A stretch of 64,000 nucleotides of DNA from Nitrosomonadaceae bacterium. GTDB taxonomy: Bacteria > Pseudomonadota > Gammaproteobacteria > Burkholderiales > Nitrosomonadaceae. The notes beneath the pieces are model-generated. The model did not search any database. It was not told the DNA's origin and saw only the letters and a list, made by a program, of their open reading frames with translations. Below, piece by piece: positions 11,149 through 44,922 of the stretch. The stretch covers positions 1 through 64,000 of the forward strand of contig PBKR01000019.1 in NCBI GenBank assembly GCA_002721545.1, given 5' to 3'. Within the stretch, counting starts at the first letter, position 1. Each line of letters begins with the position of its first letter. The position numbers were made by a program, and so were the translations under genes.

Positions 11149-11152
11149 GGTA

Positions 11153-14751: not shown

Positions 14752-14758
14752 TTATTCC

Positions 14759-16609: not shown

Positions 16610-16774
16610 ATGTCTTCTGTTCTAAAGGGGAACTTTAAAGTTAATAAAGAGGTTAAAGAAAAAAAGAAGGATCAAGATACTTTGGAAAACGAATTTGAGA
16701 ATGAAGCGATGAAGCATTTTGGTGGGAGTATAGCTTTCGTTAGAAAAAAGAAGGTGAATTGGGAATTAAAATAA
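16610..16774 (+). CDS. Small lysine/glutamate-rich protein before Maf
   Basis: 54 residues starting MSSVLKGNFK and ending KVNWELK. The ATG at 16610 has GAGAGG five bases upstream, a good ribosome site; the longer in-frame version from 16544 has none. The middle is highly charged (KEKKKDQDTLENEFENEA), likely helical, and the tail GGSIAFVRKKKVNW is more hydrophobic. No signal peptide or membrane segment. No family recognised. It precedes the Maf gene by 49 bases, so it may be a small partner in flagellin glycosylation, or a start-proximal remnant; both are guesses. Confidence 0.55.
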   Translation: MSSVLKGNFKVNKEVKEKKKDQDTLENEFENEAMKHFGGSIAFVRKKKVNWELK

Positions 16775-16823
16775 TAACACGTAGGTTTATTTGGATTCAC
16801 GATATTCTCTATTCCCCTGTTAA

Positions 16824-17873: not shown

Positions 17874-17882
17874 TTTGGTGCT

Positions 17883-19475: not shown

Positions 19476-19701
19476 TCACAGAAAATTTCCCAAATTTGTT
19501 ATATAGATTTTGATCGGTTTTCCCCTTAAATAGTTTTAGTTTCCATCAACATAATTTTTTATAAAGTTACTCCTTTATTAATATCGAACAAACAGTCTGA
19601 GTAGCTTGGAGCGTTTAGGTGAAATTGAGAAGTTATTTTTAGTGTTTTGGCAAGACGGTAATAGCTAATTAAACCTTTTTAACCGATGAAAGGAATTGTT
19701 C

Positions 19702-20394
19702 TTGGCTACAATTTGCACAGTTTGTGCCCGAGGAGGATCTACGGGTGTTCCCCGTAAAAACTTACTCCCCCTGTTACACAAACCTTTGATCGAATACACT
19801 ATTGACCAAGCCCTAGCTTGTCCCCAAATCGATAGTGTGTACTTATCTACGGATGACGAAGAAATTGCTCAGATAGGCCGTCGCCTTGGTGTAAATGTAC
19901 CCTTCCTTCGTCCTGCCGAATTAGCTGGTTTCAAAGCTCCTAAACTTCCCGTAATCGAGCATTTGGTTGACTGGGTTGTTAGCTCAGGTGTTAATGTGAA
20001 AACTATTGTCGATTTAGACCCCACTTCTCCGTTAAGGGAGGTATCCGATATTCAGGCTTGCTTGAAATTGTTAGATAAAGACACTAACGTTGTCATTACT
20101 GGCTACGAGGCAGATAAAAATCCATACTTCAACATGGTAGAGGAAAAGGAAGATGGGTATTTTTCGTTAGTTAGTCAAATTCCAGGTGGAGTATGGGGCA
20201 GGCAAGATGCTCCTAAGGTATATGCAATGAACGCATCGGTATATGTATGGCACTTGGATACCTTAAAAAAAGGGATTTGGGGAGGGAGTACTAAGCTTCA
20301 CATTATGCCTCGTTCTCGGTCAATTGATATTGATGAACCTATCGATTTTAAAATTGTGGAAATGTTAATGAGCGAAAGAAATAAGAATACTTAA
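19702..20394 (+). CDS. legF: CMP-legionaminic acid synthetase (NeuA/LegF family)
   Basis: 230 residues. Activates legionaminic acid with CTP. N-terminal CTP-binding motif ARGGSTGVPRKNL matches acylneuraminate cytidylyltransferases, and VDLDPTSPLREVSDI and the acidic IDIDEPIDF near the C-terminus complete the pattern. Start choice: AAGGA at 19690-19694 is 7 bases before a TTG at 19702, while the in-frame TTG at 19696 is only 1 base away, so 19702 is taken. First gene of the legF-legI-neuD-ptmE set. It resembles C. jejuni PtmB by context. Confidence 0.88.
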   Translation: MATICTVCARGGSTGVPRKNLLPLLHKPLIEYTIDQALACPQIDSVYLSTDDEEIAQIGRRLGVNVPFLRPAELAGFKAPKLPVIEHLVDWVVSSGVNVKTIVDLDPTSPLREVSDIQACLKLLDKDTNVVITGYEADKNPYFNMVEEKEDGYFSLVSQIPGGVWGRQDAPKVYAMNASVYVWHLDTLKKGIWGGSTKLHIMPRSRSIDIDEPIDFKIVEMLMSERNKNT

Positions 20395-20448
20395 AATTGC
20401 TCTCTGATTTCTAGTTGTTCTGTCTCTTATTATTTAAGATGATAACCA

Positions 20449-21522
20449 ATGAATTCTAAAACTTTTTTGGTTGCTGAAGCGGGTGTAAATCACAATGGTA
20501 GAGAAGACCTCGCTTTTAAATTAGTCGATGCCGCAGTTGATTCGGGTGTTGATGCTATCAAATTTCAAACCTTCAAAACCAATAATCTTGTTACTCAAAA
20601 TGCTGAAAAGGCGAATTACCAAAAAAAAACAACAGGTAGCGAAGAAAACCAATCGGAAATGTTGCAAAGATTAGAGTTGCCCCACGAACTCCACCATGAA
20701 TTAGTTCGATACTGCAAAAAAAAAGAAATTCATTTTCTTTCCACGGCTTTTGACTTGGAAAGTCTTGATTTTCTTAACAACAATCTAAACTTGAAAACTT
20801 TAAAAATACCCTCAGGCGAAATCACCAATGGACCCTTATTGTTGGCGCATGGTAGAACAGGTAAAAAAATTATCTTATCTACTGGAATGACAACATTAGA
20901 TGAAATCCAAATGGCTTTAAGTGTTATCGCATATGGAATAATAGGTGGTTTAGAACCTTCCATAAAAAATTTTCAGTCAGCTTTTAATTCTGATCTGGGG
21001 CAAACGTTGTTAAAGGAAAAAGTTACCTTGTTGCATTGTACGACTGAATACCCTGCGCCATTTTCAGAAATTAATCTACGTGCCATGCAAAGTATGAAAA
21101 AATCTTTTGCCTTGCCAGTGGGATACTCAGATCATAGTGAGGGGACTGCTGTGGCAATTGCGGCTGTCGCTTTAGGGGCTATCTTGATTGAAAAACATTT
21201 TACGCTAGATAAAACATTACCTGGCCCAGACCATAAAACATCCCTAGAACCTGATGAGATTAAAGGGATGGTAAAGGAAATACGAGCTATTGAAAAAGCT
21301 TTAGGAAATGGGGAGAAAGGTCCTCAACCCTCAGAGCTTGGTAATCGCAAAATTGTAAGGAAGAGTCTTGTAGCAACACAAAACATTAGAAAGGGGGATA
21401 AGTTTACTACAGAAAATATTTCTGTTAAACGTCCTGGCACCGGGAAAAACCCTATGGAGTATTGGGAGGTTTTAGGTGAAGTAAGCCTTCAATCTTATGA
21501 TGCGGATGAGGTAATTACTTGA
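20449..21522 (+). CDS. legI: Legionaminic acid synthase (NeuB family)
   Basis: 357 residues, the full NeuB length. It condenses the LegG product with phosphoenolpyruvate. TIM-barrel motifs: AEAGVNHNG at 9-17, DAIKFQ at 35-40 with Lys 38, STGMTT at 144-149, GYSDHSEGT at 225-233 and EKHFTLD at 248-254. The C-terminal antifreeze-like SAF domain spans about 300-355 (RKSLVA, IRKGD, RPGTG). This is the only one of three NeuB-type proteins in the window with a SAF domain. Its stop overlaps the TTG start of neuD by 4 bases. Confidence 0.9.
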   Translation: MNSKTFLVAEAGVNHNGREDLAFKLVDAAVDSGVDAIKFQTFKTNNLVTQNAEKANYQKKTTGSEENQSEMLQRLELPHELHHELVRYCKKKEIHFLSTAFDLESLDFLNNNLNLKTLKIPSGEITNGPLLLAHGRTGKKIILSTGMTTLDEIQMALSVIAYGIIGGLEPSIKNFQSAFNSDLGQTLLKEKVTLLHCTTEYPAPFSEINLRAMQSMKKSFALPVGYSDHSEGTAVAIAAVALGAILIEKHFTLDKTLPGPDHKTSLEPDEIKGMVKEIRAIEKALGNGEKGPQPSELGNRKIVRKSLVATQNIRKGDKFTTENISVKRPGTGKNPMEYWEVLGEVSLQSYDADEVIT

Positions 21523-22193
21523 GTTCTCGAGTTAAAAGCCCAGTGATTCTCCTTGGAGCGGGGGGGCATGCAAAAGTGGTAGCTGAAGTGCTATTTATAG
21601 CAAAGCGAGAAATCCTTGGTTTCTTAGACTCTGTTGTTGAAAAGGGTGAGGTGCTATTCGGAGTCGTGTGTTTGGGAACGGATAAAGAGATTCAAAATTA
21701 TTCCAGAGATGAGATTCAACTTGTAAATGGCGTGGGCTATCTTCCTGGTGAACAAAGTCGCCAAAAATTGGCCGAAAGGATGCGAAAATCAGGCTATTCT
21801 TTTGAGAGGGTCATTCATCCGACTGCGGTTCTTGCTAAAGATATTGAATTGGGTGAAGGATTGCAAATTATGGCGGGAGCGATAATTCAACCAGGAGCTC
21901 AAATAGGAAAGGATACAATCATTAATACAAAGGCTAGTGTTGACCATGATTGCAAAATCGGTAGTAGTTGCCATATTGCCCCAGGTGCTACTTTAAGTGG
22001 CGGTGTACATTTAGGTGACAATGTGCATATTGGAACGGGTGCTTCAATTATACAAAATATTCGTATTGGGGATGGAGTAGATGTGGCTGCTGGAGCTATT
22101 GTTTACCAAGATATACCTGCGGATTCCAAGGTAAGACAAAAATGTGAATATGTTATGGATAAAAAAATAGTTCGAGGAGGGCCAAAACATTGA
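21519..22193 (+). CDS. neuD: NeuD-family sugar O/N-acetyltransferase
   Basis: 224 residues. Rossmann-like N-terminus LLGAGGHAK at 11-19, then a left-handed beta-helix of hexapeptide repeats from about 110 to 205, with the likely catalytic histidine in VDHDCKIG. In legionaminic clusters this family (LegH-like) puts the N-acetyl group on the 4-amino sugar made by LegC; in sialic acid clusters it O-acetylates. The former role is preferred since no other N-acetyltransferase is in the pathway. TTG start in a TTGA overlap with legI, and again TTGA with the next gene. Confidence 0.85.
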   Translation: MSSRVKSPVILLGAGGHAKVVAEVLFIAKREILGFLDSVVEKGEVLFGVVCLGTDKEIQNYSRDEIQLVNGVGYLPGEQSRQKLAERMRKSGYSFERVIHPTAVLAKDIELGEGLQIMAGAIIQPGAQIGKDTIINTKASVDHDCKIGSSCHIAPGATLSGGVHLGDNVHIGTGASIIQNIRIGDGVDVAAGAIVYQDIPADSKVRQKCEYVMDKKIVRGGPKH

Positions 22194-23245
22194 GAGATTG
22201 GCAAAAGGTGTTGTTATCTCCAGATGACACATTGTTAATGGCAATAAATATATTACAGGATGAACCCGCTGGAATAGTTTTGGTTGTTGACAAGTCTCGA
22301 AAATTATTGGGGACCATAACAGATGGTGATGTTCGCCGAGGGTTACTTAAATTTAAAAATATGAATATCACCGCAAAAGATATTATGTGTAAGCAACCGC
22401 ATTTTGCTTTGCATTCTTCTGGGCATGAAAAAATTATATCGTTAATAAAAGAGCTTGAATACCTTCATATGCCTTTAGTTGATTCAAAGGGGTGTGTTGT
22501 GGGACTTGAAATTTTAAAGGATATATCTGGAGTGCAGCGGTATGACAACCCTGTATTTTTGATGGCAGGTGGAAAAGGAAAACGCTTGGGAAGCTTGACA
22601 AAAAATACCCCCAAACCTTTGTTGAAAGTCGGTGCTGATCCGATTTTGCAAACAATCTTAGAACAGTTTGTGCAGATTGGGTTTCACGATTTTTATATTT
22701 CTACTTGCTATAAAGGACAAATGATTCGTGAGTACTTTGGAAATGGGGATAAATGGGGTGTAAAAATCAGATACGTTAATGAAGATAAACCAATGGGTAC
22801 GGCTGGGGCCTTAGGATTGTTACCTAAAAATTTACAACACATTCCAATAATAATGATGAACGGTGATTTGTTGACAAAGCTTGACTTTGGACGCCTCCTA
22901 AAATTTCATGAAGAGAACGATGGATTAGCAACGATGTGCGTACGCGAGTATGAAGTTCAAGTTCCTTATGGTGTTATTAAGGCTGAAGGTTATAGGGTGG
23001 CAGAAATTATCGAAAAACCCAGTGAAACTTTCTTTGTGAATGCGGGTATTTATGTTTTAGACCCTGCATTCTATAAAAATGTTAATACGGGTGGATATTT
23101 GGATATGCCAGAGCTTATACAAAATGAAGTTGAAAAAGGCGGCGAGATAAATATGTTTCCTATACACGAGCCCTGGGCTGATATTGGCCATGTTGAGGAA
23201 ATTGAAAAAGCACGACAAAATATTGTAATAGCGGAAAAGAGCTAA
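22190..23245 (+). CDS. ptmE: CBS-domain sugar-phosphate nucleotidyltransferase (PtmE type)
   Basis: 351 residues. Two CBS motifs fill residues 1-115 (GTITDGDVRRGLL at 41-53), followed by a nucleotidyltransferase domain with MAGGKGKRLG at 125-134, KNTPKPLL, and MNGDLLTKLDF near residue 222. In C. jejuni PtmE is a glucosamine-1-phosphate guanylyltransferase, which makes the GDP-sugar used by the legionaminic pathway; the CBS-plus-transferase layout and the neighbours fit that. TTG start in a 4-base overlap with neuD. The CBS pair may sense an adenine nucleotide. Confidence 0.84.
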   Translation: MRDWQKVLLSPDDTLLMAINILQDEPAGIVLVVDKSRKLLGTITDGDVRRGLLKFKNMNITAKDIMCKQPHFALHSSGHEKIISLIKELEYLHMPLVDSKGCVVGLEILKDISGVQRYDNPVFLMAGGKGKRLGSLTKNTPKPLLKVGADPILQTILEQFVQIGFHDFYISTCYKGQMIREYFGNGDKWGVKIRYVNEDKPMGTAGALGLLPKNLQHIPIIMMNGDLLTKLDFGRLLKFHEENDGLATMCVREYEVQVPYGVIKAEGYRVAEIIEKPSETFFVNAGIYVLDPAFYKNVNTGGYLDMPELIQNEVEKGGEINMFPIHEPWADIGHVEEIEKARQNIVIAEKS

Positions 23246-28370: not shown

Positions 28371-29255
28371 ATGGAAAAACTTAATATTACTGTAATTGGT
28401 GGATCTGGGTTTCTTGGTTCACATGTGGCAGATCAAATGAGTACTGAGGGCCATATAGTGAAAATATATGACAATAAAGCTTCGCCCTGGCTTCGCGAAG
28501 ACCAAACGATGATGATTGGAGATCTGCTCGATTTTGAGTCTTTGAGTAAGGCTATTGCTGGTTCAGATGTGGTGTGTAATTTTGCTGCTATAGCTGATCT
28601 GATTGAATCTCGAGATAACCTCTTAGATACTATTCGAATCAATGTTTTGGGGAATGCTTATGCTTTAGATGCTTGCCGGATGAATAAGGTTAAGCGTTTT
28701 GTTTTTGCCAGTACGGTTTATGTCTATAGCCGAGAAGGTGGATTTTATCGATGTAGTAAGCAAGCGTCTGAACACTTCGTGGAAGAATATCAGCGCGTTC
28801 ATGATCTTGATTATACTATCCTCCGGTTTGGTTCGTTGTATGGTCCGCGTTCGGATGAGAGAAACGGCTTATATCGAATCGTACGGGATGCCTTGAAAAA
28901 TAATATTGTAAGTTATGAAGGTGATTCTGAGGCGATGCGTGAATATATTCATGTAGAGGATGCAGCGCGTGCAAGCGTTGTTGCTTTAGGTGATGATTTT
29001 CGAAACCAAAGCGTTGTGTTGACTGGGCAAGAACCAATGCGGGTGAACGATTTGCTAAATATGTTGGCAGAGATTTTGGGAATTAAAGAGGGTGTCAAGT
29101 TTCTTGGTGCTTCGCATGAGGGAAGGTATGTACGCACCCCCTATTCCTATCAGCCTAAATTAGGAAGAAAATATATTCCTCCTATGCATGTTGACCTTGG
29201 GCAGGGCCTATTGCAATTGATTGGTGAGATAAGTCAGCAAATAAAAAAATTATGA
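28371..29255 (+). CDS. NAD-dependent sugar epimerase/reductase (SDR)
   Basis: 294-residue extended SDR, slightly short. Cofactor motif IGGSGFLGS at 9-17, ASTVYVYS at 113-120 and the catalytic YRCSK at 126-130. RFGSLYGPRSDERNG is the usual WcaG-type segment. The end overlaps the FAH gene by 4 bases, so they are co-translated. It starts a run (SDR, FAH, HAD) that looks like a small sugar-acid pathway. Substrate unknown. Confidence 0.8.
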   Translation: MEKLNITVIGGSGFLGSHVADQMSTEGHIVKIYDNKASPWLREDQTMMIGDLLDFESLSKAIAGSDVVCNFAAIADLIESRDNLLDTIRINVLGNAYALDACRMNKVKRFVFASTVYVYSREGGFYRCSKQASEHFVEEYQRVHDLDYTILRFGSLYGPRSDERNGLYRIVRDALKNNIVSYEGDSEAMREYIHVEDAARASVVALGDDFRNQSVVLTGQEPMRVNDLLNMLAEILGIKEGVKFLGASHEGRYVRTPYSYQPKLGRKYIPPMHVDLGQGLLQLIGEISQQIKKL

Positions 29256-30019
29256 AGATTGTGCGCTTTCAAATAGGTCTTGAATATCATTACGGTGACC
29301 TTTTGGATGGTCAGGTTTTTTGTTGGTCTGCTGCGCCTTGGGAAGGCGGAAAACGCTTAACAAAGTCTTTTCCTGCTGATGAGATAACGCTGATGGCACC
29401 TTGTAAACCTCGTAAGATTGTAGGAGTGGCGATCAATTACCCTGGGGCTACTGGGCTAAAAGAAGGAACAAATGAACCATTAGTTTTCTTAAAACCTTCT
29501 TCATCGGTAATTGGTTCTGGACAGTCTATTATTTCTCCATTTAAAAATATTTCAGTATGGGGAGAGTGTGAATTGGGAATTGTGATCGGGAAAAGACTCC
29601 AGCAGGCAAGTTTAGCAGAGGTCGAAGAGGGCATTTTTGGGTACACCATAGGAAATGATGTTACTGCCGATAATATCGAAGGTTGGGACCACCATCTTGT
29701 TCGCTCAAAAGGTGTAGATACTTTCTGTCCCTTAGGACCATGGATTGACACAGAATTTAAACCACATGAAAATATTATATCCGGCTACCATAATACGGAA
29801 CTATTACGTAAAGGGTATCTACATGAGAGGCTTTTTAAGGAACCGGAGTTATTGGTGTGGCTCTCATCTTGGATGACATTAGAGCCTGGGGATATTGTTT
29901 TAACGGGAGCGCCCACAAGGGTTCGCGAAAGAATATATTTCAAAGATAAGGATAATTTTACTTGTAGCATCGAAGGCTTAGGGGAATTGTCAAATTCATT
30001 CAAGAGTTTACATGATTGA
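29252..30019 (+). CDS. Fumarylacetoacetate-hydrolase (FAH) family protein
   Basis: 255 residues. Metal ligands of the FAH fold are present: Glu 105 and Glu 107 in GECELGIVIGK, and Asp 136 in GNDVTAD; RSKGVDTFCPLGPWI at 151-165 is the family's conserved block. N-terminal KIVGVAINYPG also fits. FAH proteins hydrolyse, decarboxylate, dehydrate or tautomerise 2-oxo acids, including 2-keto-3-deoxy sugar acids. Such an enzyme is not expected in an O-antigen island, and it sits between an SDR and a HAD hydrolase with overlaps on both sides. A role on a 2-keto-3-deoxy sugar acid is an inference. Confidence 0.85.
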   Translation: MKIVRFQIGLEYHYGDLLDGQVFCWSAAPWEGGKRLTKSFPADEITLMAPCKPRKIVGVAINYPGATGLKEGTNEPLVFLKPSSSVIGSGQSIISPFKNISVWGECELGIVIGKRLQQASLAEVEEGIFGYTIGNDVTADNIEGWDHHLVRSKGVDTFCPLGPWIDTEFKPHENIISGYHNTELLRKGYLHERLFKEPELLVWLSSWMTLEPGDIVLTGAPTRVRERIYFKDKDNFTCSIEGLGELSNSFKSLHD

Positions 30020-30779
30020 AACAGCAAAAGTGGTTATATTTGATTTTGATGGAGTAGTCTGCGACAGCACCAATGAATGCTTGGTCAGTTCTTGGAATGC
30101 ATGGGAAAAATGGAACGGTCGTAAAGGGTTTCGTAAATCTATAGAACCGTTTAGCTCTTATGAGAGAGATCTCTTTCGCAGTTTGCGTCCCAGAGTGCGC
30201 GGAGCAGGGGAATATTATATACTTCGTCGCTGTTTGGAAGAAAAAAAGTTGATTGATAACCAATTGGTTTACGACCAGTTTGAGAAAAAATGGCAAGAAC
30301 ATCTGCAACCATTTAAGCAGTTATTTTTTGAAGTGAGAAACCGCCTTCGCAAAGAAAACCTTGATGAATGGATAGGACTCCATCAGGTTTTCATCAATGT
30401 GATAAGCGTGATGAAGCAGCTGATTTGCGATGGGCGTTTATATGTTGCAACTCTGAAAGATGAAGAGTCTGTACAACTTATTCTTGCTAAACAGGGTTTG
30501 GTTTTGCCCCAGGATCGTTTATTAGGCCAATCTCAGATAAATTCTAAGTTACAAGCGCTAAACATAATCAGTGAGCAAACAGGCTGTGGAAAGGATGACT
30601 TGGTATTTCTAGATGACAATGTTACTCATTTGCTGGAACCGAAATTAAATGGCTTTAAGGTTTATCTCACGGCCTGGAATTTTCCTTTTAAGGAATACCT
30701 GGATTTAGCTGCACAACATCAAATTGAAGTAGTAAGTGATTGCAACCTGTTGTTTTCTAAAAATACTTCTTCAGTTTAA
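30012..30779 (+). CDS. HAD-superfamily hydrolase
   Basis: 255 residues. Motif I FDFDGVVCDS with Asp 11 and Asp 13, motif II TLKDEES with a threonine, motif III lysine, and motif IV FLDDNVTH near residue 197. The helical cap is inserted between motifs I and II (C1-type). It most likely removes phosphate from a sugar phosphate. It overlaps the FAH gene by 8 bases, so it probably acts on a pathway intermediate of the same cassette. Confidence 0.82.
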   Translation: MIETAKVVIFDFDGVVCDSTNECLVSSWNAWEKWNGRKGFRKSIEPFSSYERDLFRSLRPRVRGAGEYYILRRCLEEKKLIDNQLVYDQFEKKWQEHLQPFKQLFFEVRNRLRKENLDEWIGLHQVFINVISVMKQLICDGRLYVATLKDEESVQLILAKQGLVLPQDRLLGQSQINSKLQALNIISEQTGCGKDDLVFLDDNVTHLLEPKLNGFKVYLTAWNFPFKEYLDLAAQHQIEVVSDCNLLFSKNTSSV

Positions 30780-30830
30780 AAATATCTAATTAACTTTGAT
30801 AGATTCAAATAAATAACTATTGAGGGCGAA

Positions 30831-32624
30831 ATGTACGATTTTTACTTTGGAAACAAAGAACAAATTAAAAAAAATCCTGAAGAGTTTCTTATTTTTTGTA
30901 AACGCATGCTCCCAAGATGGATAAATGGCATTCCAGATAGTGAATGTATTGCAATTTTTCGAACACTAAATCTTGTTAAGAGTTCAAAACCTATACTTTT
31001 AGAAACGGGGTGTGGGGCAAGCACGCTCGCACTTTTTTTGTATGCTGTTTTGAATAAAGGGAAAGTTTTTTCTTGGGATACCAATGGCAGTAAGGGTTCA
31101 TTTTTACGCTCTGTGATATCAGAGGCAATCTGTCGCCCTTTAGAAATTAATCTTTATGAATATTGGAACTTTATAGGTTTTGATAGTACCAGCGAGCATG
31201 CCGGTATACCCCTTATTAAGGAACTCAATTATAAAGCAGACTTCTGCTTTTTTGATTCTTGGCATACACTGGAACATTTAATGAAAGAGTTGAAATGTTT
31301 TGAGAATGTGGCGAACGAAGAATTTATTGTTGCCCTAGATGATGCTTATTATACTAAACGGTCGAACAATTATGCGTACTTAAATATGATAAGAAAAAAG
31401 TTAGATTTGCGACCTGTTAAAGAACCAAAATCTAATTTTTGTGATCCTTTTTATTCTGTGGTCCAAAAATATTTAAACAAAAAGTATCAAAGGGTCGAAA
31501 AAATAGACGATTCTTATAAAAAGGAATATGGCGATGACTTGTTTTTTAGGTATTTTGAAGCTGACAAGTTAGCAATGGAGTCTTTAGGAATGGAAAAGAA
31601 GAGGTCGTTAGAGCATCGTTATGATTGCTGGAAGGTAAATAGTGTTAAACATTTAGATATGAATGGGGTAGATGTGTGCGTTTTGTGTGGATCTGGAGAT
31701 GTTCACACCATTACTGACAAGATGCGCCATGAAAAAATAGGAACAGTTGTTCGTTGCGTTAAATGTGACTTGGCTAGGTTGATGGGGGCACAGAAGTATG
31801 AAGAGAAGTTAGATGGGTTTTATGAGGAACAATATGCGCTGCATTATTTTCTAGGAGTTAAAAGCGATGCCAGTACACTGCATAAGACTTTTCTACCTGT
31901 TCAAAAGGACCGAGTTAAAAAATTAGCCCCGTACTTGCATAAAACTGACAAAGTTCTTGAGGTGGGAAGTGGGACTGGATATTTTCTCGAGACTATCCGT
32001 AATAAGGTTACCGAGGTTCAAGGTATTGAACTCAATAAAAACCATGCTGCTTATGCTTCTGAGGTCCTGGGCATTCCTACTATCAATAAGGCACACGGGA
32101 ACTCTGATTTACCACTTGCATATTATGACCACCTATGTTTATTCCAAGTACTAGAGCATGCTACCAACCCCATTAAGCTTATCAGAGAATTAAAGCCGTT
32201 TCTTAAAACGGGAGGTCATTTACATATTGAAGTCCCAAACCTGCTAGACCCCATGGTTTCATTTTACGATGTGGAAGCTTACCGTAATTTTTTCTATCAA
32301 ATTCCTCATCTGTATTACTTCACACCCGAGACATTAGCTAAAATATGTAGCAAAGTTACAGGTCTAAAGCCCATTAAGATATTTGGTTTTCAACAAACAA
32401 GCTTGATCAACCATTTAAACTGGGCCTTTTGGGGGAAACCACAAAAAAGCCGTTGGGATTGCATTCAGCCCGTATTACCGGAGGATTTCCTTGGCTCAGA
32501 TATTTCCGAGGAAACAAAAACTACATTAAACGAAATATTGCTCGATGTTGATCAGCGTTATAAAGAATTTTTGGAGAGTAATAATTTTTCAGACAATTTG
32601 TTTGCGACATTTGTCGTTGAGTAG
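30831..32624 (+). CDS. Two-domain methyltransferase fusion
   Basis: 597 residues with two separate methyltransferase-like parts. The N-terminal part (about 1-220) has a SAM-type loop LLETGCGASTLALF at 57-70, CFFDSWHTLEHL at 139-150 and VALDDAYY at 167-174. The C-terminal part starts with a zinc site CVLC at 283-286 and CVKC at 309-312 (RxCxxC), then LEVGSGTGYFLE at 376-387 and FQVLEHATNP. The second half looks like sugar C- or O-methyltransferases of the zinc-knuckle type. It could install two methyl groups on the same sugar. Lies 51 bases after the HAD gene. Confidence 0.78.
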   Translation: MYDFYFGNKEQIKKNPEEFLIFCKRMLPRWINGIPDSECIAIFRTLNLVKSSKPILLETGCGASTLALFLYAVLNKGKVFSWDTNGSKGSFLRSVISEAICRPLEINLYEYWNFIGFDSTSEHAGIPLIKELNYKADFCFFDSWHTLEHLMKELKCFENVANEEFIVALDDAYYTKRSNNYAYLNMIRKKLDLRPVKEPKSNFCDPFYSVVQKYLNKKYQRVEKIDDSYKKEYGDDLFFRYFEADKLAMESLGMEKKRSLEHRYDCWKVNSVKHLDMNGVDVCVLCGSGDVHTITDKMRHEKIGTVVRCVKCDLARLMGAQKYEEKLDGFYEEQYALHYFLGVKSDASTLHKTFLPVQKDRVKKLAPYLHKTDKVLEVGSGTGYFLETIRNKVTEVQGIELNKNHAAYASEVLGIPTINKAHGNSDLPLAYYDHLCLFQVLEHATNPIKLIRELKPFLKTGGHLHIEVPNLLDPMVSFYDVEAYRNFFYQIPHLYYFTPETLAKICSKVTGLKPIKIFGFQQTSLINHLNWAFWGKPQKSRWDCIQPVLPEDFLGSDISEETKTTLNEILLDVDQRYKEFLESNNFSDNLFATFVVE

Positions 32625-32841
32625 CTCTCATCTTCAGGAGACCCTAAAAATTAATCATGGGCTAAATTTTAAAAACCTGAGAAAAATTCATACTCTAAAA
32701 AATAAACAATTGCTTCCTAAGGTTGATTTTATGGGAGCACCCATCAGAATAGGAATCCTATAAAGCTTTCTAATGATCTTACTGAAAAATTTTAATGTGT
32801 CGATAGGATGCCTGGAAGTATGATTAGCATATGAAATCATT

Positions 32842-33606
32842 ATGAAAATTATTGTTGGAATTCCAGCGCGCATGGGTTCAACTCGTTTTCCCGGCAAACC
32901 ATTATGTGATATTTTAGGTAAGCCGATGATCGAGCACTGCTACCGAAGGTGCGCGCTTAGCAAATATGCAACGAGTCTTTTTGTTGCGGCATGTGATCGT
33001 GAAATACAGCAAGTGGTTGAGCAGTTTGGCGGCTCAGTGATTATGACGGACCTAGATATAAAGAGGCCCGGCCTTCGAGTTGCTGCTGCGGCTGAAACGT
33101 TAGCCTTGGATGCCGATGATATTGTTGTAGTGGTTCAAGGGGACGAGCCTTTGGTGCATCCCGATATGATTGATTTGGCAGTCCAGCCTTTGCTTGATGA
33201 GCCAGATATTTTTGTCTCCAATCTATGTGCGAAACTAAATGAAAACGAGTGGAATGATCCAGGTGAAATAAAGGTGGTTTGTGATCTAAAGATGAATGCT
33301 ATGTATATGTCGCGTGCTCCGGTTCCATCGATTGATCATGAAGAGAAGCGGGCTAGTTGGTGGAAGCAGGTATGTATTATGCCTTTCCGGTGGCATTTTA
33401 TGCAGCGTTTCAATAATGAACTGGAAACTACTCCGCTGGAGCTTCAGGAGTCTATTGAAATGATACGAGCTTTACAGCATGGCTTTAAAGTGCGAATGGT
33501 CCCCTCTTCGTTTTCTTCTAAATCCGTAGATACTGAAAACGATCGAAAGAAAGTTGAAGAATTAATGCAAATAGATCCAATCTACGAAAAATATAAGGAT
33601 TTGTGA
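32842..33606 (+). CDS. KdsB-like CTP:ulosonate cytidylyltransferase
   Basis: 254 residues, normal KdsB length. CTP site IPARMGSTRFPGKPL at 7-21 and metal/sugar region VVQGDEPLVHPDMI at 97-110 are well kept. The stretch that in Kdo synthetases reads HxSGTDR is replaced here: after MTDLDI comes KRPGLRV (74-80). The enzyme therefore very likely makes a CMP-2-keto-3-deoxy sugar, but not necessarily CMP-Kdo. Its stop overlaps the start of an HpaI-type aldolase (GTGATG). A cell with Kdo-lipid A would have a normal KdsB elsewhere, so this copy is probably specialised. Confidence 0.8.
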   Translation: MKIIVGIPARMGSTRFPGKPLCDILGKPMIEHCYRRCALSKYATSLFVAACDREIQQVVEQFGGSVIMTDLDIKRPGLRVAAAAETLALDADDIVVVVQGDEPLVHPDMIDLAVQPLLDEPDIFVSNLCAKLNENEWNDPGEIKVVCDLKMNAMYMSRAPVPSIDHEEKRASWWKQVCIMPFRWHFMQRFNNELETTPLELQESIEMIRALQHGFKVRMVPSSFSSKSVDTENDRKKVEELMQIDPIYEKYKDL

Positions 33607-34367
33607 TGAAATATGCTATCAAGAAAAAAATGAAGGCGGGTAAAACGGTGTTTGGAACTTGGTGTATGCTTCCTTCCAGTTTTGTTGTGGATGTGATTGC
33701 TGGTACTGGATTGGACTTTGTTGTTCTAGACATGGAGCATGGCACGTTGAGTTGGGAAACAGCAGAAGAAATGGTGCGTGCGGCTCAATTGCACGAGTGC
33801 CAACCGATTATCAGGGTCGGTGATGACCAAGAAAATACCATATTGCATGCTTTAGAAACAGGTTGTGAAGCTATTTTGGTGCCTCATGTTTCTACTGCAA
33901 AGTCTGCGACAGGAATTGTAAATGCTTCACGATATGCTCCAAAAGGCTCACGAGGTCTCTCGCCTTACACAAGAAACCATGGGTACACTCACGTGGGTTT
34001 GGCTGAAAGCATGGCACGGCATAGTGACGAGACGCTTGTGGGAATCCTTGTTGAGGGGAAGGAAGGAATTGAAAATTTACCTGAAATTGCTCAGGTTGAG
34101 GGCTTAGATCTCATTTATTTAGGTATGTATGATATTTCTCAGTCAGTTGGTTTGCCCGGGGAACTAGAACATCCAAAAGTTTTAGAACAATTAGAGAAGT
34201 GTCTCGAAACTATTCAAAAATCCAGAAAATTTTCCGGGGTATTTTCCAGAGATCTGGGGTATTGCTCTAAATTTAGGGATATGGGATTTGATTTTGTTGC
34301 GTATATTGCAGACAGTCATGCATTGACTGCTTATTACTCCTCATGTGTCCAAGAGTTTCATAAGTAA
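33606..34367 (+). CDS. HpcH/HpaI-family class II pyruvate aldolase
   Basis: 253 residues, TIM barrel. Catalytic His 45 in DMEHGTLSW, Arg 70 in PIIRV, metal ligands Glu 150 in ILVEGKEG and Asp 176 in YLGMYDISQSVG. These enzymes join or split a 2-keto acid (usually pyruvate) and an aldehyde, giving 2-keto-4-hydroxy acids such as 2-keto-3-deoxy sugar acids. The ATG at 33606 shares its A with the stop of the KdsB-like gene; a GTG one codon earlier is also possible. Placed directly after a cytidylyltransferase, it may make the ulosonate that is then activated with CTP; a breakdown role is the alternative. Confidence 0.85.
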   Translation: MKYAIKKKMKAGKTVFGTWCMLPSSFVVDVIAGTGLDFVVLDMEHGTLSWETAEEMVRAAQLHECQPIIRVGDDQENTILHALETGCEAILVPHVSTAKSATGIVNASRYAPKGSRGLSPYTRNHGYTHVGLAESMARHSDETLVGILVEGKEGIENLPEIAQVEGLDLIYLGMYDISQSVGLPGELEHPKVLEQLEKCLETIQKSRKFSGVFSRDLGYCSKFRDMGFDFVAYIADSHALTAYYSSCVQEFHK

Positions 34368-34434: not shown

Positions 34435-35628
34435 TTGAATAAAATAATTTACATTAGTGGTACCCCTATATCAAAAATATCGGGAAAAAGACATTGCCCG
34501 GAATGGTATTGTGAAAATGGTTTCGATGTTGAATTTTGGGATTTAACAGAACTCTATTACAAACCAGGTACGCTAGAAAAATATTTTACCCCTCATTCGA
34601 ACTTCAAATATGAATTTCCAACTCCCAGGGAATTTAAAAGTAAACGGGAAGTAAAAATTGCTTTAAGCAAAATAGGGAAAGGTGTTATTTTCGCAAATAT
34701 AGATTACAACATGCAAAATGATTATTGGTTAAGGAGATTGTTTAAAATTTATAATATCTTATATTTTGTAGGGCCCATAAGAACAACGGATGAATGTGAT
34801 AGGCCCGCATTTGGGACTCGTATATCAGAGCTAACGTTTTCGTTTTCAGAATTAAAATTGTTATGCTTGAGAATATATCGAACGATAATTTATAAAGTAA
34901 AAATAGCTATATATAAAAATACGAATTTTTATAAAAAACCTGAATTTGTGGTTGGGTCTGGCAAGTTGGGAAGAGCTGAGTGGATTAAGGCCATGAAACC
35001 CAAAGATTATCTAAGCGTTCCCTCAGTGGATGTTGCATGGAGTAGCTCGCCCAATATCATTGGACAAAAATATTGTGTGTATGTAGATGAGACGGTTATA
35101 TATAATGCCGATGGCATGATCGGCGTAGCTGGACGTTTTGTTAATTCCACGTCCAGTGATTTTGAAACCTATTTAAGTAATATATGTCGGATGTTTGATG
35201 AGGTCGAAAAGCAAGAGAAATGCAGAGTAGTTATTGCGGCGTCCGGTAAGTATAGATACAAGGATGATAAAATTTTTGGTGGTAGAAAAATTATTTACGA
35301 ATCTACCAACCAACTAATTCAAAATGCCTGTCTAGTCCTTGGGCATAACTCGTCAGGCCTTTTTCAGGCCATTATAGATAAAAAAAGAATGCTGCTATTT
35401 ACAGAATCAACTTTCTTAGAATTAAAAAATATCCGTATCAAGAGGACTGCTGATTTTTTAAAATTGAAGTTGCTGAAGGCCGAAGACTTTAAAGCAAGCA
35501 TGCTGGAATTAAGTCAAATCGATGGGGATCATTTTGATAAATTAACGGAGCTTTATTTCCTGGAGGAAGGAGTATCAGGTGACACCAAGTCACTGATTAA
35601 GGAAAAAATATTGGAAGTCATAAACTAA
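34435..35628 (+). CDS. Unknown protein, possible GT-B transferase
   Basis: 397 residues, not recognised. N-terminal Rossmann-like start KIIYISGTPIS. C-terminal half contains VVIAASGKYRYKDD, ACLVLGHNSSGLFQAIIDKK and MLLFTES, a nucleotide-sugar or phosphoglycerol-type donor loop pattern like that in the protein at 25985. No signal peptide or membrane span. It starts with TTG at 34435 without a clear ribosome site, the weakest start in this stretch. Probably a transferase using one of the cassette's activated sugars. Confidence 0.5.
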   Translation: MNKIIYISGTPISKISGKRHCPEWYCENGFDVEFWDLTELYYKPGTLEKYFTPHSNFKYEFPTPREFKSKREVKIALSKIGKGVIFANIDYNMQNDYWLRRLFKIYNILYFVGPIRTTDECDRPAFGTRISELTFSFSELKLLCLRIYRTIIYKVKIAIYKNTNFYKKPEFVVGSGKLGRAEWIKAMKPKDYLSVPSVDVAWSSSPNIIGQKYCVYVDETVIYNADGMIGVAGRFVNSTSSDFETYLSNICRMFDEVEKQEKCRVVIAASGKYRYKDDKIFGGRKIIYESTNQLIQNACLVLGHNSSGLFQAIIDKKRMLLFTESTFLELKNIRIKRTADFLKLKLLKAEDFKASMLELSQIDGDHFDKLTELYFLEEGVSGDTKSLIKEKILEVIN

Positions 35629-35759: not shown

Positions 35760-36419
35760 CTACAGAATATGATTTAAAAGGCCCATATCAAATGGAATAG
35801 TTAACCCATTGAGGCTCGTAATTTTATTCGTTATTACCCATTCCACAAAACTTCCAATATCATCCGGGTTTGCGACTCTACCAGTCGGCAAACCTTTCAC
35901 AAACTCATTAATATTAGAATTGGAGTCATCTAATAATTGTTGCAATCTCGGAGTCATCGTTGGACCAGGAGCTATATTTATAAAACTTATGTTTTTTTCC
36001 ATGAAAATTTTGCTCAAGGACTTTAAAACTGATACCAATGCAATACGATAAGAATTAGATAATATTAATGACGAATTTGGTTCTTTAATATTTAGCGAAG
36101 AAATCAAAAAAACATACCCATTATCATTAATCTTAATACCCTGCAAAATTCTTACAAAAGATAAAAATAACTGATTATGATAACGCAACCATTCTTCCTC
36201 AGTAATTTCACTGAATTCTTTCGCTGGTGGACCTCCAGTATTCATTATTAAAATATCTGTGGAAGAGTGTTTGGTAATAAATTTCTTAACGGAAACCATT
36301 GATGAGGTATCAAGTGATTTCCTGCCAGTAACAACTAATTCCTCTACAGATCCCTCTAAGTATTTGGCTATAGATGCGCCAATACCGCTAGTTCCAGCTA
36401 TTACGATACCTTTTTTCAT
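35760..36419 (-). CDS. Divergent SDR oxidoreductase
   Basis: 219 residues. Cofactor loop AGTSGIGASI at 8-17 and NTGGPP (the NAG-position loop) near residue 60. The usual YxxxK is not present: the region reads SNSYRIALVSVLKSL, the SNxxR form seen in a branch of SDRs. SSLNIKEP holds the catalytic-type serine. The C-terminus NGLTIPFDMGLLNHIL is of the common type. Its start overlaps the end of the degenerate NeuB-like gene by 4 bases. Substrate unknown, probably an intermediate of the same sugar acid path. Confidence 0.7.
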   Translation of the reverse strand: MKKGIVIAGTSGIGASIAKYLEGSVEELVVTGRKSLDTSSMVSVKKFITKHSSTDILIMNTGGPPAKEFSEITEEEWLRYHNQLFLSFVRILQGIKINDNGYVFLISSLNIKEPNSSLILSNSYRIALVSVLKSLSKIFMEKNISFINIAPGPTMTPRLQQLLDDSNSNINEFVKGLPTGRVANPDDIGSFVEWVITNKITSLNGLTIPFDMGLLNHIL

Positions 36420-37153
36420 TTTTTTTCAACCCAATCTGGTGTCAATATTGCGTCTTTATGAGACGAACCCATAACTTTAGTAGAATGACGTACTTTCAAA
36501 CATGTTTCTGCCACCTCACTCAAATGAAATCCATGTTTGCCGTCTGGGGCATCATTGGAATGTTTCACATAAAAGAACACATCGCTTGGATGCAAGGAAG
36601 CAGCAATAAATAAAACCTCTTTAAAATCTGAATGCAACCCGAAGGCCATTTCTATACCATAGCGATCTCTAAGATGAAGCATTGAGGCAAGACGAACATT
36701 ATTCACATCAGAACTTAAACTTGTATGAATAAATACAACGTCTTTCCAAGTTTTGCTGCACTGAACAATTTCTTCAGTACTTGAAATCCCTGTCGATACA
36801 TAAATTTTACTACTAACCCGTTTAAGTTTTTGGAGCAATGATTGATTGCCGATATCCCAGCTTAAAGTCTTCCAGAAGTCAACCCCAATAGGTTGTAAAT
36901 CATCTATGATTCCTGCATCAGCGATAGCAACACCAAATAATTTTCCAGCACGTCTAACTTTTTCTGAAGCCGTACGGTAAAAACTCAATGGAAGCTTTTT
37001 TTTGTGTGGGGCAGTAGAATCATAAAAAACCTCTTCCCTTATTTGAAAGGTTATCCCATCAATTTCAGGTTCATCTATCAGAGAGTCTAGCATCTCCAAA
37101 GCTATTTCAGTAGATCCTAAATGATTAAGTCCGATTTCAGTAATAATATTCAT
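36416..37153 (-). CDS. Degenerate NeuB-family TIM-barrel protein
   Basis: 245 residues. Clear NeuB relatives are EIGLNHLGS at 6-14, VSTGISSTEEI at 119-129 and the KHSNDAPDG segment at 197-205. Key catalytic features are changed: the KFQ lysine is Thr 35 (GITFQ), GYSDH reads GLHSDF at 172-177, and the glutamate of EKHFT is Val 196. The SAF domain is absent. It is therefore unlikely to be an ordinary sialic-acid synthase. It lies between neuA and an SDR in an operon, so selection has kept it; it might be a partner subunit, a different aldolase, or a decaying gene. Confidence 0.72.
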   Translation of the reverse strand: MNIITEIGLNHLGSTEIALEMLDSLIDEPEIDGITFQIREEVFYDSTAPHKKKLPLSFYRTASEKVRRAGKLFGVAIADAGIIDDLQPIGVDFWKTLSWDIGNQSLLQKLKRVSSKIYVSTGISSTEEIVQCSKTWKDVVFIHTSLSSDVNNVRLASMLHLRDRYGIEMAFGLHSDFKEVLFIAASLHPSDVFFYVKHSNDAPDGKHGFHLSEVAETCLKVRHSTKVMGSSHKDAILTPDWVEKK

Positions 37154-38066: not shown

Positions 38067-39077
38067 ATGAAACTTGTTTTTCTCATTTCACTAGCATCTA
38101 TAATTTCAGTAGGAATGCTTACTGGAATAATAAAATACTACTGCGAATCTTGGGGGATGATTGATATCCCAAATGAGCGTAGCTCGCATTCTCTCCCTAC
38201 CCCAACTGGTGGTGGAGTTTCTGTGGTGTTGCTATTTACGTTAATTAGTCTGGCTTTGGATTATAGCAAGATCATTCAATTTGATAACCTGACCATTCTA
38301 TTATTACCAAGCATCATGGTTGCGATGATCGGATTTATTGATGACCTAAATCATGTCCCAGCTTTTTGGAGATTGCTCGTCCATTTCCTTAGTGCAATTT
38401 TGTTTTTGAATTCGTTAGGAGGTTTTCCGCCTTTAGATATAGGTGGTCTAACTATTGATTTAGGTTGGTTCGGTTATGTTTTTGGTTCTCTTTACTTAGT
38501 TTGGTTGCTCAATTTATATAATTTTATGGATGGAATTGATGGCATCTCCAGCATTGGAGCCATTACAGTTTGTGTCAGTATAATCTTCATCATGATACAA
38601 CAAAATATACCTCTAAAGCATTGGGTTGTACCTCTTTTGCTGGCTTCCACGGTTGGTGGTTTCTTGTTTTGGAATTTTCCTGTAGCCAAAATATTTATGG
38701 GAGATGGATGTAGTGGCTTTCTGGGCTTTACAATAGGTTTGTTTTCCATTCAAGCAGCTCAGGTTATGCCTCAAATGTTCTGGGTTTGTATAGTTTTATT
38801 AGCAGTTTTTATTGTCGATGCTACTTATACGCTAATGCGACGTATCATAACGGGTCAAAAATTTTATAAGGCGCACAATGAACATGCCTTTCAAATAGCT
38901 TCACGCCGGCACTCTCATGTAAAGGTTTCATTAATAGTAGGATTAATTAATATAGTTTGGTTATTACCAATAGCCTATATGATAAGCACAAAAAACATAA
39001 ATGCTTTGGTTGGGGTAATTATTGCTTATCTACCTTTAATTGGATTAGAAATATTTATCAAAAATGAAAAAAAATAA
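38067..39077 (+). CDS. Polyprenyl-phosphate sugar-1-phosphate transferase (WbpL/WecA family)
   Basis: 336 residues with about 10 membrane segments. It starts glycan assembly by moving a HexNAc-1-phosphate from its nucleotide to undecaprenyl phosphate. Motifs: NERSSHSLPTPTGGG at 36-50, the Asp-Asp of FIDDLNH at 90-96, the metal region NFMDGIDG at 152-159, MGDGCSGFLGF near 211, and the C-terminal HAFQIASRRHSH loop. The ERSSHxxPTPxGGG form is that of WbpL-type enzymes, which take FucNAc- or QuiNAc-type sugars besides GlcNAc. The end overlaps the next gene by 14 bases. Confidence 0.92.
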   Translation: MKLVFLISLASIISVGMLTGIIKYYCESWGMIDIPNERSSHSLPTPTGGGVSVVLLFTLISLALDYSKIIQFDNLTILLLPSIMVAMIGFIDDLNHVPAFWRLLVHFLSAILFLNSLGGFPPLDIGGLTIDLGWFGYVFGSLYLVWLLNLYNFMDGIDGISSIGAITVCVSIIFIMIQQNIPLKHWVVPLLLASTVGGFLFWNFPVAKIFMGDGCSGFLGFTIGLFSIQAAQVMPQMFWVCIVLLAVFIVDATYTLMRRIITGQKFYKAHNEHAFQIASRRHSHVKVSLIVGLINIVWLLPIAYMISTKNINALVGVIIAYLPLIGLEIFIKNEKK

Positions 39078-40017
39078 CATTACTGATTTACCCAAATCTC
39101 CAAAAATTGTTGTCACTTCTCTTTCATTTGCAAAATCCAAATTTCTTCGACAAGAATTAAATAAAAAATTTTCCAACTGTTTTTTTAATGAAACCGGTAG
39201 GCATTTAACAAAAGTAGAACTGATTGAGGTTTTAAAAGATGCCGATGCGGCAATTATTGGTCTCGATAAGATTGATGAATCTATACTTGGGAAGGCTTCT
39301 CGTCTGCAGATAATATCCAAGTATGGAGTAGGCTTGGATAACATAGATCAAGGGCTGCTGGCCAAATACAAAATAAGGCTCGGGTGGGAAGGAGGCGTTA
39401 ATCGTAGGTCTGTGGCTGAAGTTACCCTCTGCTTCATGTTGGGTCTTTGCAGGAATATTTTTAATTCAGGTTTTAGCCTCAAGCAAATGCTTTGGAATAA
39501 AAATGGAGGAGCTCAAATTACAGGAAAAACAGTAGGAATTATTGGGTGCGGTAATATTGGATCCGATGTGATTCAGTTGCTTTCTCCATTTAGGTGCAAT
39601 ATCTTGGTTCATGATATTATTGATAAATCAGAGTTTTGCCAAAAACAAAAAGTGAAGGAAACGGACTTGGTCAATTTGATTTCCACGTCCGACATCATCT
39701 CGCTTCATGTCCCTTTAACTCCTCAGACTAAGGGAATGGTTGATAAATCTTTTATTAGCCGTATGAAATCGACGGCCTATTTAATAAATACCAGCAGGGG
39801 CGATGTTGTTGATCAGGCAGCCCTAAAGAATGCTTTAATTAATGGAGATATTGCTGGTGCGGCTTTAGATGTGTTTGAGGAGGAACCTCCAAAAGATAAA
39901 GAATTTCTGTCTCTACCTAATTTAATGGTAACCCCTCATATGGCTGGAAACTCCAAGGAGGCAATAATGGCTATGGGTCAATCAGCTATAAATCATTTGA
40001 TTGATTTTTATAAGTAA
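39064..40017 (+). CDS. D-2-hydroxyacid dehydrogenase (SerA-like)
   Basis: 317 residues. NAD motif IIGCGNIGSD at 159-168, catalytic Arg 245 in NTSRGDVVD, glutamate near 273 and His 292 in VTPHMAGNS; KYGVGLDNID at 87-96. No ACT regulatory domain, so it is not full-length SerA. In sugar clusters such enzymes oxidise a sugar-acid side chain or make a hydroxyacid substituent. It overlaps the WbpL-like gene, so it belongs to the same transcript. The substrate is unknown. Confidence 0.85.
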   Translation: MKKNNITDLPKSPKIVVTSLSFAKSKFLRQELNKKFSNCFFNETGRHLTKVELIEVLKDADAAIIGLDKIDESILGKASRLQIISKYGVGLDNIDQGLLAKYKIRLGWEGGVNRRSVAEVTLCFMLGLCRNIFNSGFSLKQMLWNKNGGAQITGKTVGIIGCGNIGSDVIQLLSPFRCNILVHDIIDKSEFCQKQKVKETDLVNLISTSDIISLHVPLTPQTKGMVDKSFISRMKSTAYLINTSRGDVVDQAALKNALINGDIAGAALDVFEEEPPKDKEFLSLPNLMVTPHMAGNSKEAIMAMGQSAINHLIDFYK

Positions 40018-44073: not shown

Positions 44074-44922
44074 TTACCCATTCCAGGATATATGCTCCCT
44101 TAGTTTTTTGGAAATGGGAACTTCACCTTCTATTATTCTCTTTTCACCATCGCCCAACGCTGTTTCAATTTTTCTGATAGCTCCAACAAGCTCACGTAAT
44201 CCATTAAGCTGAACCGAGGCGGACTGATCAGATCCATACATCGACCGGTCCAGGGTGATGTGTCTTTCCAGAGAAGTAATTTCAAGAGCAGCTGCAGCAT
44301 GGGAAATAGCTAAGCCTGCCTCATGTCCACTATAACCAACATCACACTTATAACGGTTGCGGAGCATAGGAATGCATTTCAAATTTGCATCTTCAACTTT
44401 CATGGGATATGTGGAAACAGTGTGCATTAATTCAAAAGGGCAGTTAGCGGCTCTAAATATTTCCACTGCATTTTGAATATTTTCATGAGTACTCATACCA
44501 GTAGAAATGAAAGTGTGCTTCCCCTCCTTGGCCACCACTCTTAACAAATCATCGTAAACAATCATGGCTGAAGCAATCTTATTATGGTTGGAATTAAACT
44601 GGCTTAAAAACTCCTGACTATTTAAATCCCAAGCAGAAGCAAACCATTCAATCCCCTTTTCCTTGCAGTACCTGTCCACCTCTTGGTATTCTTCAAAGCC
44701 AAACTCAAGACCCTGTTTTTGCTCCCGCTGTGTTGACCCCCAAGGGCTCTCCCTAGATGAATTTAAAAATTCTTGAGTATATACCTTGTCAATATCTCGT
44801 TTTTGAAACTTGACGGCATCACACCCCGCATCCTTCGCGCCATCAATAAGTTGTTTACAGATCTCCATATCCCCATTATGGTTAATCCCTATTTCTGCAA
44901 CGATAAAAATTTCTTTTTTCAT
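44074..44922 (-). CDS. neuB: NeuB-family nonulosonate synthase without SAF domain
   Basis: 282 residues. Complete catalytic set: AEIGINHNG at 9-17, DAVKFQ at 35-40 with Lys 38, STGMSTHEN at 140-148, GYSGH at 196-200 and ERHITLD at 219-225. The C-terminal SAF domain is missing, as the protein ends about 60 residues after ERHITLD. The SAF-less form with a linked KdsC-like phosphatase suggests a route via a phosphorylated nonulosonate (9-phosphate type, as in sialic acid or KDN synthesis of animals and Bacteroides). Start overlaps the phosphatase gene by 4 bases. Confidence 0.87.
   Translation of the reverse strand: MKKEIFIVAEIGINHNGDMEICKQLIDGAKDAGCDAVKFQKRDIDKVYTQEFLNSSRESPWGSTQREQKQGLEFGFEEYQEVDRYCKEKGIEWFASAWDLNSQEFLSQFNSNHNKIASAMIVYDDLLRVVAKEGKHTFISTGMSTHENIQNAVEIFRAANCPFELMHTVSTYPMKVEDANLKCIPMLRNRYKCDVGYSGHEAGLAISHAAAALEITSLERHITLDRSMYGSDQSASVQLNGLRELVGAIRKIETALGDGEKRIIEGEVPISKKLREHISWNG

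Follow-up and report, generated by a model that had tools for sequence, protein, structure and literature searches.

A conserved KdsB–HpaI gene cassette suggests an aldolase route to a CMP-activated ulosonate in Nitrosomonadaceae

Introduction

To our knowledge, the known routes to a cytidine monophosphate (CMP)-activated ulosonate all use a phosphoenolpyruvate (PEP)-dependent synthase. The closest described systems are the pathway to 3-deoxy-D-manno-oct-2-ulosonic acid (Kdo), comprising KdsD, KdsA, KdsC and KdsB, the nonulosonic acid pathways (Neu, Leg and Pse), and the HpcH/HpaI, GarL and RhmA pyruvate aldolases. Here, we describe a gene cassette of a Nitrosomonadaceae bacterium, at 28371–34367 on the + strand of the 64,000-nt stretch of contig PBKR01000019.1 that was analysed (the window, in which all its positions are counted), where the gene for a KdsB-like cytidylyltransferase overlaps that for an HpcH/HpaI-type class II aldolase.

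Like the Kdo pathway, the cassette combines a KdsB-family transferase that keeps its cytidine triphosphate (CTP) and metal residues with a HAD-type phosphatase gene nearby, and three related cassettes (L120, L122 and L123) also encode a GmhA-like SIS isomerase. It differs in having HpaI in place of KdsA, altered positions in the sugar domain of KdsB, and an extra short-chain dehydrogenase/reductase (SDR) and D-2-hydroxyacid dehydrogenase (2HADH). With the nonulosonic acid pathways, whose genes also occur in the window, it would have in common that a 2-keto sugar acid is activated with CMP and destined for a surface glycan; those pathways, however, use a NeuB-type PEP-dependent synthase and a NeuA-type transferase, whereas the cassette pairs HpaI and KdsB types. 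Its aldolase resembles the HpcH/HpaI–GarL–RhmA enzymes in its PF03328 domain and catalytic residues, but it lies far under their equivalog cut-offs and sits beside a cytidylyltransferase rather than in a breakdown operon. HpaI-type enzymes are described as turning pyruvate and hydroxyaldehydes into 4-hydroxy-2-oxo acids (PMC7610986), and KdsB enzymes as joining the C2 hydroxyl of 2-ulosonates to CMP (PMC3149649). On balance, we favour the reading that no PEP-dependent synthase is involved and that the core of the cassette (SDR, KdsB-like enzyme, HpaI-type aldolase and phosphatase) yields the CMP form of a 2-ulosonic acid, other than plain Kdo, for a surface glycan.

Results

The linkage of KdsB-like and HpaI genes recurs throughout the window's family, Nitrosomonadaceae (f1; 37 genomes, G000–G036, G000 being the window's assembly), which was compared with 24 genomes from other families of the same order. 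A KdsB profile matched 35 of the 37 f1 genomes at ≤5.6e-109, in one place each and in two in G000, while 22 of the 24 others matched at 1.2e-52 to 3.4e-34; G023 and G029 (89% and 74% complete) gave no match to the profile. Apart from G000, 34 f1 genomes match; 29 of their loci were fetched, and all 29 have HpaI and then 2HADH genes after the KdsB-like one. The order KdsB-HpaI-2HADH-SDR-HAD is found in each of the ten f1 stretches read over 20 kb. The second copy in the window's assembly, found with the KdsB-like protein (45% identical) on contig C32, has this same order. Window and C32 share 49% identity in the SDRs (over 291 residues), 45% in the KdsBs and 26% in the aldolases, and the likeness of the two HAD proteins is confined to the surroundings of motif I.

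Outside the family, a genome scan with the window aldolase, which used six short peptide patterns and was not exhaustive, returned four loci. The closest are two uncultured Litoricola contigs, in which the aldolase is 62% and the KdsB-like protein 67% identical to the window's, the end of the KdsB-like gene meeting the aldolase start; the other two (L003 and L004) have no KdsB match. On one of the Litoricola contigs (L002), a flagellin gene was recognised by eye 6 kb away. Strict searches with the aldolase alone gave only the window aldolase itself and one place in G031 near genes that look siderophore-like by eye. As these searches also missed the assembly's own C32 copy, we dropped the conclusion that there is no linkage elsewhere. 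In the G031 locus (L006, contig C1), the HpaI relative adjoins diaminopimelate-decarboxylase-like and PepSY-type genes, again by eye, with the look of SbnG-type siderophore synthesis. Viral scans contained no relative of the cassette; two Staphylococcus phage records bear an HpaI relative that is 32% identical.

In a sample of 398 genomes of the phylum, 44 had a KdsB match at ≤1e-62, and the matches listed include 30 loci, 28 of them outside f1. HpaI lies within 1.5 kb of KdsB in three of these 28 (L091, L092 and L101) and at 2.6–3.4 kb in two wider stretches (L123 and L122), such that the two genes are near each other in five further genomes from four other families. In the G543 cassette (L119), HpaI-KdsB precedes 2HADH, SDR (48% identical to that of the window) and HAD genes, and two unknown genes intervene. 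In G490, G551 and G440, KdsB is accompanied by Gfo/Idh, a GmhA-like SIS protein, 2HADH, HpaI and a methyltransferase, and in the first two by an inositol-monophosphatase relative as well. One further locus (L090/L118), about 100 bases from a contig end, has a KdsB of the same clade with no HpaI in sight. At 8227–13425 of L129 (G457), KdsB stands with Gfo/Idh, SIS, SDR, 2HADH and a 3-dehydroquinate-synthase relative, perhaps an alternative way to a related sugar.

In the controls, 21 phylum KdsB loci had no HpaI match within 1.5 kb per side (less at contig ends), and five named plasmid KdsBs, out of ten records found, had no annotated HpaI within 6–8 kb per side in the PLSDB gene table, which is incomplete. 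HpaI was likewise absent from 21 LpxK-centred loci, a weak control that reaches just ~370–580 bases beyond KdsB. Overlapping kdsA, SIS-domain and kdsB genes occur on a plasmid of Streptomyces, a Gram-positive (NZ_CP108746.1; L124, 6569–8744). A chance neighbourhood was rejected, because f1, four other families and Litoricola all show the linkage.

An earlier sequence-only reading of the window had proposed a six-family set and a genome check for its conserved linkage. The KdsB–HpaI core recurs in other genomes, including all 29 f1 loci, and this expectation is borne out. Conservation of the full set was rejected: the FAH-family protein and the two-domain methyltransferase are unmatched in other cassettes, and the window HAD has no full-length counterpart there. 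Some other cassettes carry a methyltransferase that looks unrelated to the window's. The 2HADH, present in most other cassettes, had gone unnamed in that reading.

The KdsB proteins linked to HpaI form a clade of their own. In a tree of 49 rows (12 HpaI-linked KdsBs, L118, L103, 14 of the 21 unlinked ones, 20 canonical ones from LpxK loci and an odd second KdsB of L123), the 12 linked KdsBs fall with L118 and L103 on one branch (support 100/98) and the 20 canonical KdsBs on a separate one (100/100); L103 and the odd L123 copy have long branches. The latter gene (G440, 15094–15909 of L123) lies on the opposite side of its cassette, and its branch is very long.

The sugar site of this clade is altered. 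Three of its positions were compared, 181, 210 and 211 (Escherichia coli KdsB numbering, from an alignment to 1vh1), which we take to contact Kdo. They are H, E and Q in all 41 KdsBs with no HpaI in sight (21 unlinked and 20 canonical). Q181 and M211 occur instead in 37 of 37 HpaI-linked KdsBs (29 f1 loci, C32, the window, L002 and L119–L123), with D at position 210 except in the window and L002, which keep E. L118 has Q/D/M, L103 I/D/S and the odd L123 copy H/E/L. The CTP-loop Arg and Lys and both metal Asp are retained in all 49 rows, and the Lys and both Asp also in further KdsB rows aligned. The roles of the CTP-loop and metal residues, and of the C-terminal domain in Kdo binding, are those given in PMC3149649. 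The changes H181 to Q and Q211 to M fit what a change of sugar would leave in the sequence.

The family also lacks recognisable KdsA, WaaA and LpxC genes. KdsA over cut-off is found in none of the 37 f1 genomes, G000 included, versus 23 of the 24 others; weaker f1 matches do not exceed 109 bits (cut-off 314) and look like DAHP synthases. Neither WaaA nor LpxC was found in any of the 37, versus 24 of 24 for both in the comparison set. LpxK is present in 10 f1 genomes, all of one genus (g4, 10/10), versus 22 of the 24 others; this genus thus retains LpxK though LpxC and WaaA were not found there. With no KdsA found in f1, a product of KdsA is not available there to the KdsB-like enzyme. AmoA was found in 21 of the 37 f1 genomes, G000 not among them, and in 0 of the 24 others, so that f1 apparently consists of ammonia oxidisers. 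Missing lipid A genes are already published for two species: as Opiyo et al. (2010, PMC3087551) report, of nine Kdo2-lipid A genes, Nitrosomonas europaea has just lpxK and Nitrosospira multiformis just lpxA. In the literature searched, we found no description of KdsA absence together with a conserved KdsB–HpaI cassette, and no paper joining an HpaI aldolase to kdsB or to both a cytidylyltransferase and flagellin; two papers mention kdsB and HpcH. Outside f1, the KdsB of this clade is an extra, since five of seven holders have KdsA over cut-off; the other two are G551 and G586 (78% and 71% complete).

Two kinds of HpaI aldolase serve the cassettes. In a tree of 19 relatives (12 from cassettes and 7 others), the window and Litoricola aldolases group with five non-cassette ones (100/98), away from the f1 and L119–L123 aldolases, and forcing all cassette aldolases together was rejected (AU test, p 0.005); L121 and L006 have long branches, and the remaining side of the tree is weakly supported. 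The separate branches mean that this one KdsB clade gained a further, different HpaI partner and that the partnership was made more than once, as if the KdsB needed an aldolase product. The catalytic residues, with roles as described for AbHpaI (PMC8560999), are retained in both kinds.

In the window, all six genes of the sequence-only reading were found as open reading frames (ORFs) on the + strand, several with overlapping ends as it had said. The cassette opens with an SDR of the epimerase/dehydratase type (28371–29255; PF01370, 135 bits), followed with a 4-nt overlap by a FAH-family protein of the acylpyruvase/isomerase/decarboxylase superfamily (29252–30019; PF01557, 136 bits, plus PF10370), and after a further overlap of 8 nt by a HAD-like candidate phosphatase (30012–30779). 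The last assignment, at 22 bits under both Pfam cut-offs, is the weakest of the six family labels, and the other family matches are firm. A two-domain protein, a predicted methyltransferase (30831–32624; Methyltransf_23 at residues 360–508 and a sub-threshold Methyltransf_24 at 57–171), starts 51 nt after the HAD gene and ends 217 nt before the KdsB-like gene (32842–33606; PF02348, 136 bits), which overlaps the GTG-started aldolase gene (33603–34367; PF03328) by 4 nt. The cassette thus falls into two closely packed parts, SDR-FAH-HAD and KdsB-HpaI, on either side of the methyltransferase gene. In the 217-nt gap, RNA structure was not above that of shuffles (z -0.56). Promoter-like sites were fewer than in shuffles. 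The FAH and methyltransferase genes look like local additions in the window.

The KdsB-like protein, of the HpaI-linked clade, scores 261.4 bits with the KdsB subfamily model NF009905 (NCBIfam; cut-off 255), as against 309.7 for C32, 271.3 for L123 and, just under the cut-off, 251.6 for Litoricola. With the kdsB equivalog TIGR00466 (cut-off 155.2), it reaches 140.6, and the three other HpaI-linked copies scored also stay below (C32 148.6, Litoricola 144.9 and L123 148.1). The aldolase belongs to the HpcH/HpaI family by its PF03328 score (101.6 bits, cut-off 25) and by the intact Glu, His and Arg and metal Glu and Asp (E45, H46, R71, E151 and D177). Against the HpaI, GarL and RhmA equivalogs it scores 152, 119–121 and 116 bits, with cut-offs of 369, 393–407 and 441, a shortfall of more than 200 bits in each case. 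A 397-aa protein with no Pfam family is encoded 67 nt 3′ of the aldolase (34435–35628, + strand) and is, as a guess, a candidate user of the sugar. A 2HADH relative 4.7 kb downstream (39064–40017, + strand) is 45% identical to the L129 copy and 34% to the C32 cassette copy, and its membership in the cassette is uncertain.

The window is rich in surface-sugar genes, among them a LegC/NeuC/NeuB-type set, an MptE-like protein, a WbuX amidotransferase and a Wzy_C ligase. LegC (TIGR04181), NeuC (TIGR03568) and NeuB (TIGR03569) score over cut-off at 10141–23245, with a PseF-like transferase; this set is split by WbuX with HisH/HisF-like genes (by eye), the MptE-like gene and a B12-binding radical SAM protein. 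On the - strand, two short synthases resembling NeuB (245 and 282 aa) are encoded. That at 36416–37153 (region to 37914) adjoins a PseF-like cytidylyltransferase and an SDR, while that at 44074–44922 (region to 45446) overlaps a KdsC/KDN-9-phosphatase-like HAD gene (44919–45446) with no cytidylyltransferase adjoining. Within 28371–34367, no NeuB-type synthase adjoins the KdsB-like gene.

The assembly has an estimated contamination of 7.52%. In composition, the quarters of the window correlate with C32 at r 0.63–0.70, with G005 at 0.66–0.74 and with Litoricola at 0.39–0.46, compared with 0.85–0.88 for G005 against parts of C32; GC at third codon positions is 0.34–0.40 in the window cassette versus 0.24 in the C32 pair.

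Around the f1 cassettes, a 424-aa protein is encoded divergently in nine of ten stretches and in C32, and a GT2 glycosyltransferase, also divergent, in eight of ten and in C32. The 424-aa protein is sub-threshold to Glyphos_transf and Capsule_synth, and its profile found no PDB sequence. Its AlphaFold model is poor (mean pLDDT 60.9) and GT-B-like, with UDP-GlcNAc 2-epimerases and glycosyltransferases as best PDB matches (TM ~0.4–0.5), so that from this model it is a candidate glycosyltransferase only. In L085 (G020, 7493–9952), it is fused to the GT2 protein in one 820-aa ORF. Wzy_C ligase-type genes occur in six of the ten stretches, one cut at the stretch end.

In C32, L080, L084/L136 and L085/L137, genes for a GNAT-type acyltransferase, a MobA-like nucleotidyltransferase, LptF, a lipid kinase and a Tam41-like protein (a weak match) lie within ~11 kb of the cassette, joined in C32 and L084/L136 by a CDP-alcohol transferase. 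A fatty acid desaturase and a lipid kinase domain are fused in one 684-aa ORF in L080 (G006, 16879–18933). In the other seven f1 stretches, genes of this phosphosphingolipid type were not seen, except that L083 has a Tam41-like match at its edge. Such kinds of protein are described for the Caulobacter phosphosphingolipid cluster CC_1152–CC_1168, with orthologs reported in Nitrosomonas eutropha (PMC11324152). The likeness is by gene family only, and the KdsB–HpaI cassette, in contrast, is no part of the described cluster.

Discussion

From gene content, conserved linkage, the KdsB clade, its residue pattern and f1 genomes without KdsA, WaaA and LpxC, we infer the direction, step order, substrates and product of the following pathway. 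The HpaI-type enzyme, a divalent-metal class II aldolase, would add the enolate of pyruvate to an aldose or other aldehyde to give a 4-hydroxy-2-oxo acid, and any phosphate brought in by the aldehyde would be stripped off by the phosphatase; in L120, L122 and L123, the SIS protein would fit making an aldose phosphate. The acid would then close to a ring, and the KdsB-like enzyme would join its C2 hydroxyl to CMP from CTP, with metals on the two conserved aspartates. The SDR may oxidise or epimerise the sugar before or after the CMP step, and the product, other than plain Kdo, would go into a surface glycan. In cassettes with a 2HADH, the enolate is perhaps that of hydroxypyruvate, a substrate accepted by 19 of 571 class II aldolases screened (PMC7610986). 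The models that fit the C32-type 2HADH best are those of phosphoglycerate dehydrogenase and glyoxylate reductase, with scores under their cut-offs, and its supply of hydroxypyruvate is thus only proposed. The aldolase-made, methylated, CMP-activated ulosonate of the sequence-only reading thus stands in part: the linkage, the KdsA not found in f1 and the altered sugar site fit a non-Kdo ulosonate, while methylation rests on the window alone.

Several observations weigh against this pathway. HpaI relatives are best known from breakdown, and NeuB-type PEP-dependent synthases are present in the window. The KdsBs of the clade are related, and their residue pattern is therefore one change seen many times. 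The long-branched clade member L103/L129 has no HpaI match in 18 kb and is accompanied by SIS, 2HADH and a DHQ-synthase relative. On a Haladaptatus plasmid, FAH, HpaI, 2HADH and Gfo/Idh genes cluster without KdsB in what looks like a breakdown function. Finally, to judge from its composition, the window contig may be an island or mis-binned; in the latter case, its cassette and that of C32 come from different organisms, leaving the f1 cassette, Litoricola and the other families as the basis of the argument.

The best-surviving alternative, which we still consider improbable, is that the KdsB-like enzyme receives its substrate from a PEP-dependent synthase, such as the one encoded by the NeuB-like gene at 44074–44922 with its HAD neighbour, and that the aldolase serves otherwise. 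This pair has no cytidylyltransferase of its own beside it, and its members score 237 bits with the NeuB model and 99 bits with the KDN-9-phosphatase model, both under cut-off. However, the pair is ~10 kb off on the opposite strand, whereas HpaI overlaps KdsB, and no NeuB-type gene was seen in the ten f1 stretches (by eye and with the query set; whole f1 genomes were not searched for NeuB).

A role in breakdown, with the aldolase and FAH protein degrading a 2-keto-3-deoxy acid and the KdsB-like gene adjacent without function, is more doubtful still. The Haladaptatus cluster, which lies beside a galactonate dehydratase gene, and the HpaI relative of L004, in an operon that looks catabolic by eye, would suit it, but KdsB–HpaI pairs occur in many genomes, involve two kinds of HpaI and have sugar-transfer genes around them, and no transporter or sugar-acid dehydratase was recognised by eye beside the window cassette. 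That the aldolase makes ordinary Kdo from arabinose (or its phosphate) and pyruvate, replacing KdsA alone, would agree with the KdsB family membership and with the KdsA not found in f1, but is equally hard to credit given the sugar-domain changes in 37 of 37 linked KdsBs, the WaaA not found in 37 of 37 f1 genomes and the KdsA kept besides the cassette in five of seven holders outside f1.

Returning to the aldolase route to a CMP-ulosonate, we tentatively offer a wider proposal, possible rather than probable, in which nearly all genomes of ammonia oxidisers without lipid A and Kdo genes would use this route in Kdo's place, the sugar linking a glycan to an Lpt-exported sphingolipid anchor. With hydroxypyruvate supplied by the 2HADH, 3-hydroxy (Ko-like) ulosonates may arise from the aldolase in a single step, and the window cassette would be an accessory form of the route that was recruited separately and lies in a polysaccharide or flagellin-glycan locus. 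A sphingolipid-anchored, Lpt-exported glycan bearing a new ulosonate is a reasoned guess by analogy with Caulobacter.

A KdsB clade with an altered sugar site and pyruvate-type aldolases points to a sugar and a route hidden under the annotation 'Kdo synthesis', and the Q181/M211 pattern offers a quick test for mislabelled kdsB genes. Together, the cassette and the KdsA-less family suggest an undescribed replacement pathway for Kdo, and for ammonia oxidisers this bears on what replaces Kdo-lipid A in the outer membrane.

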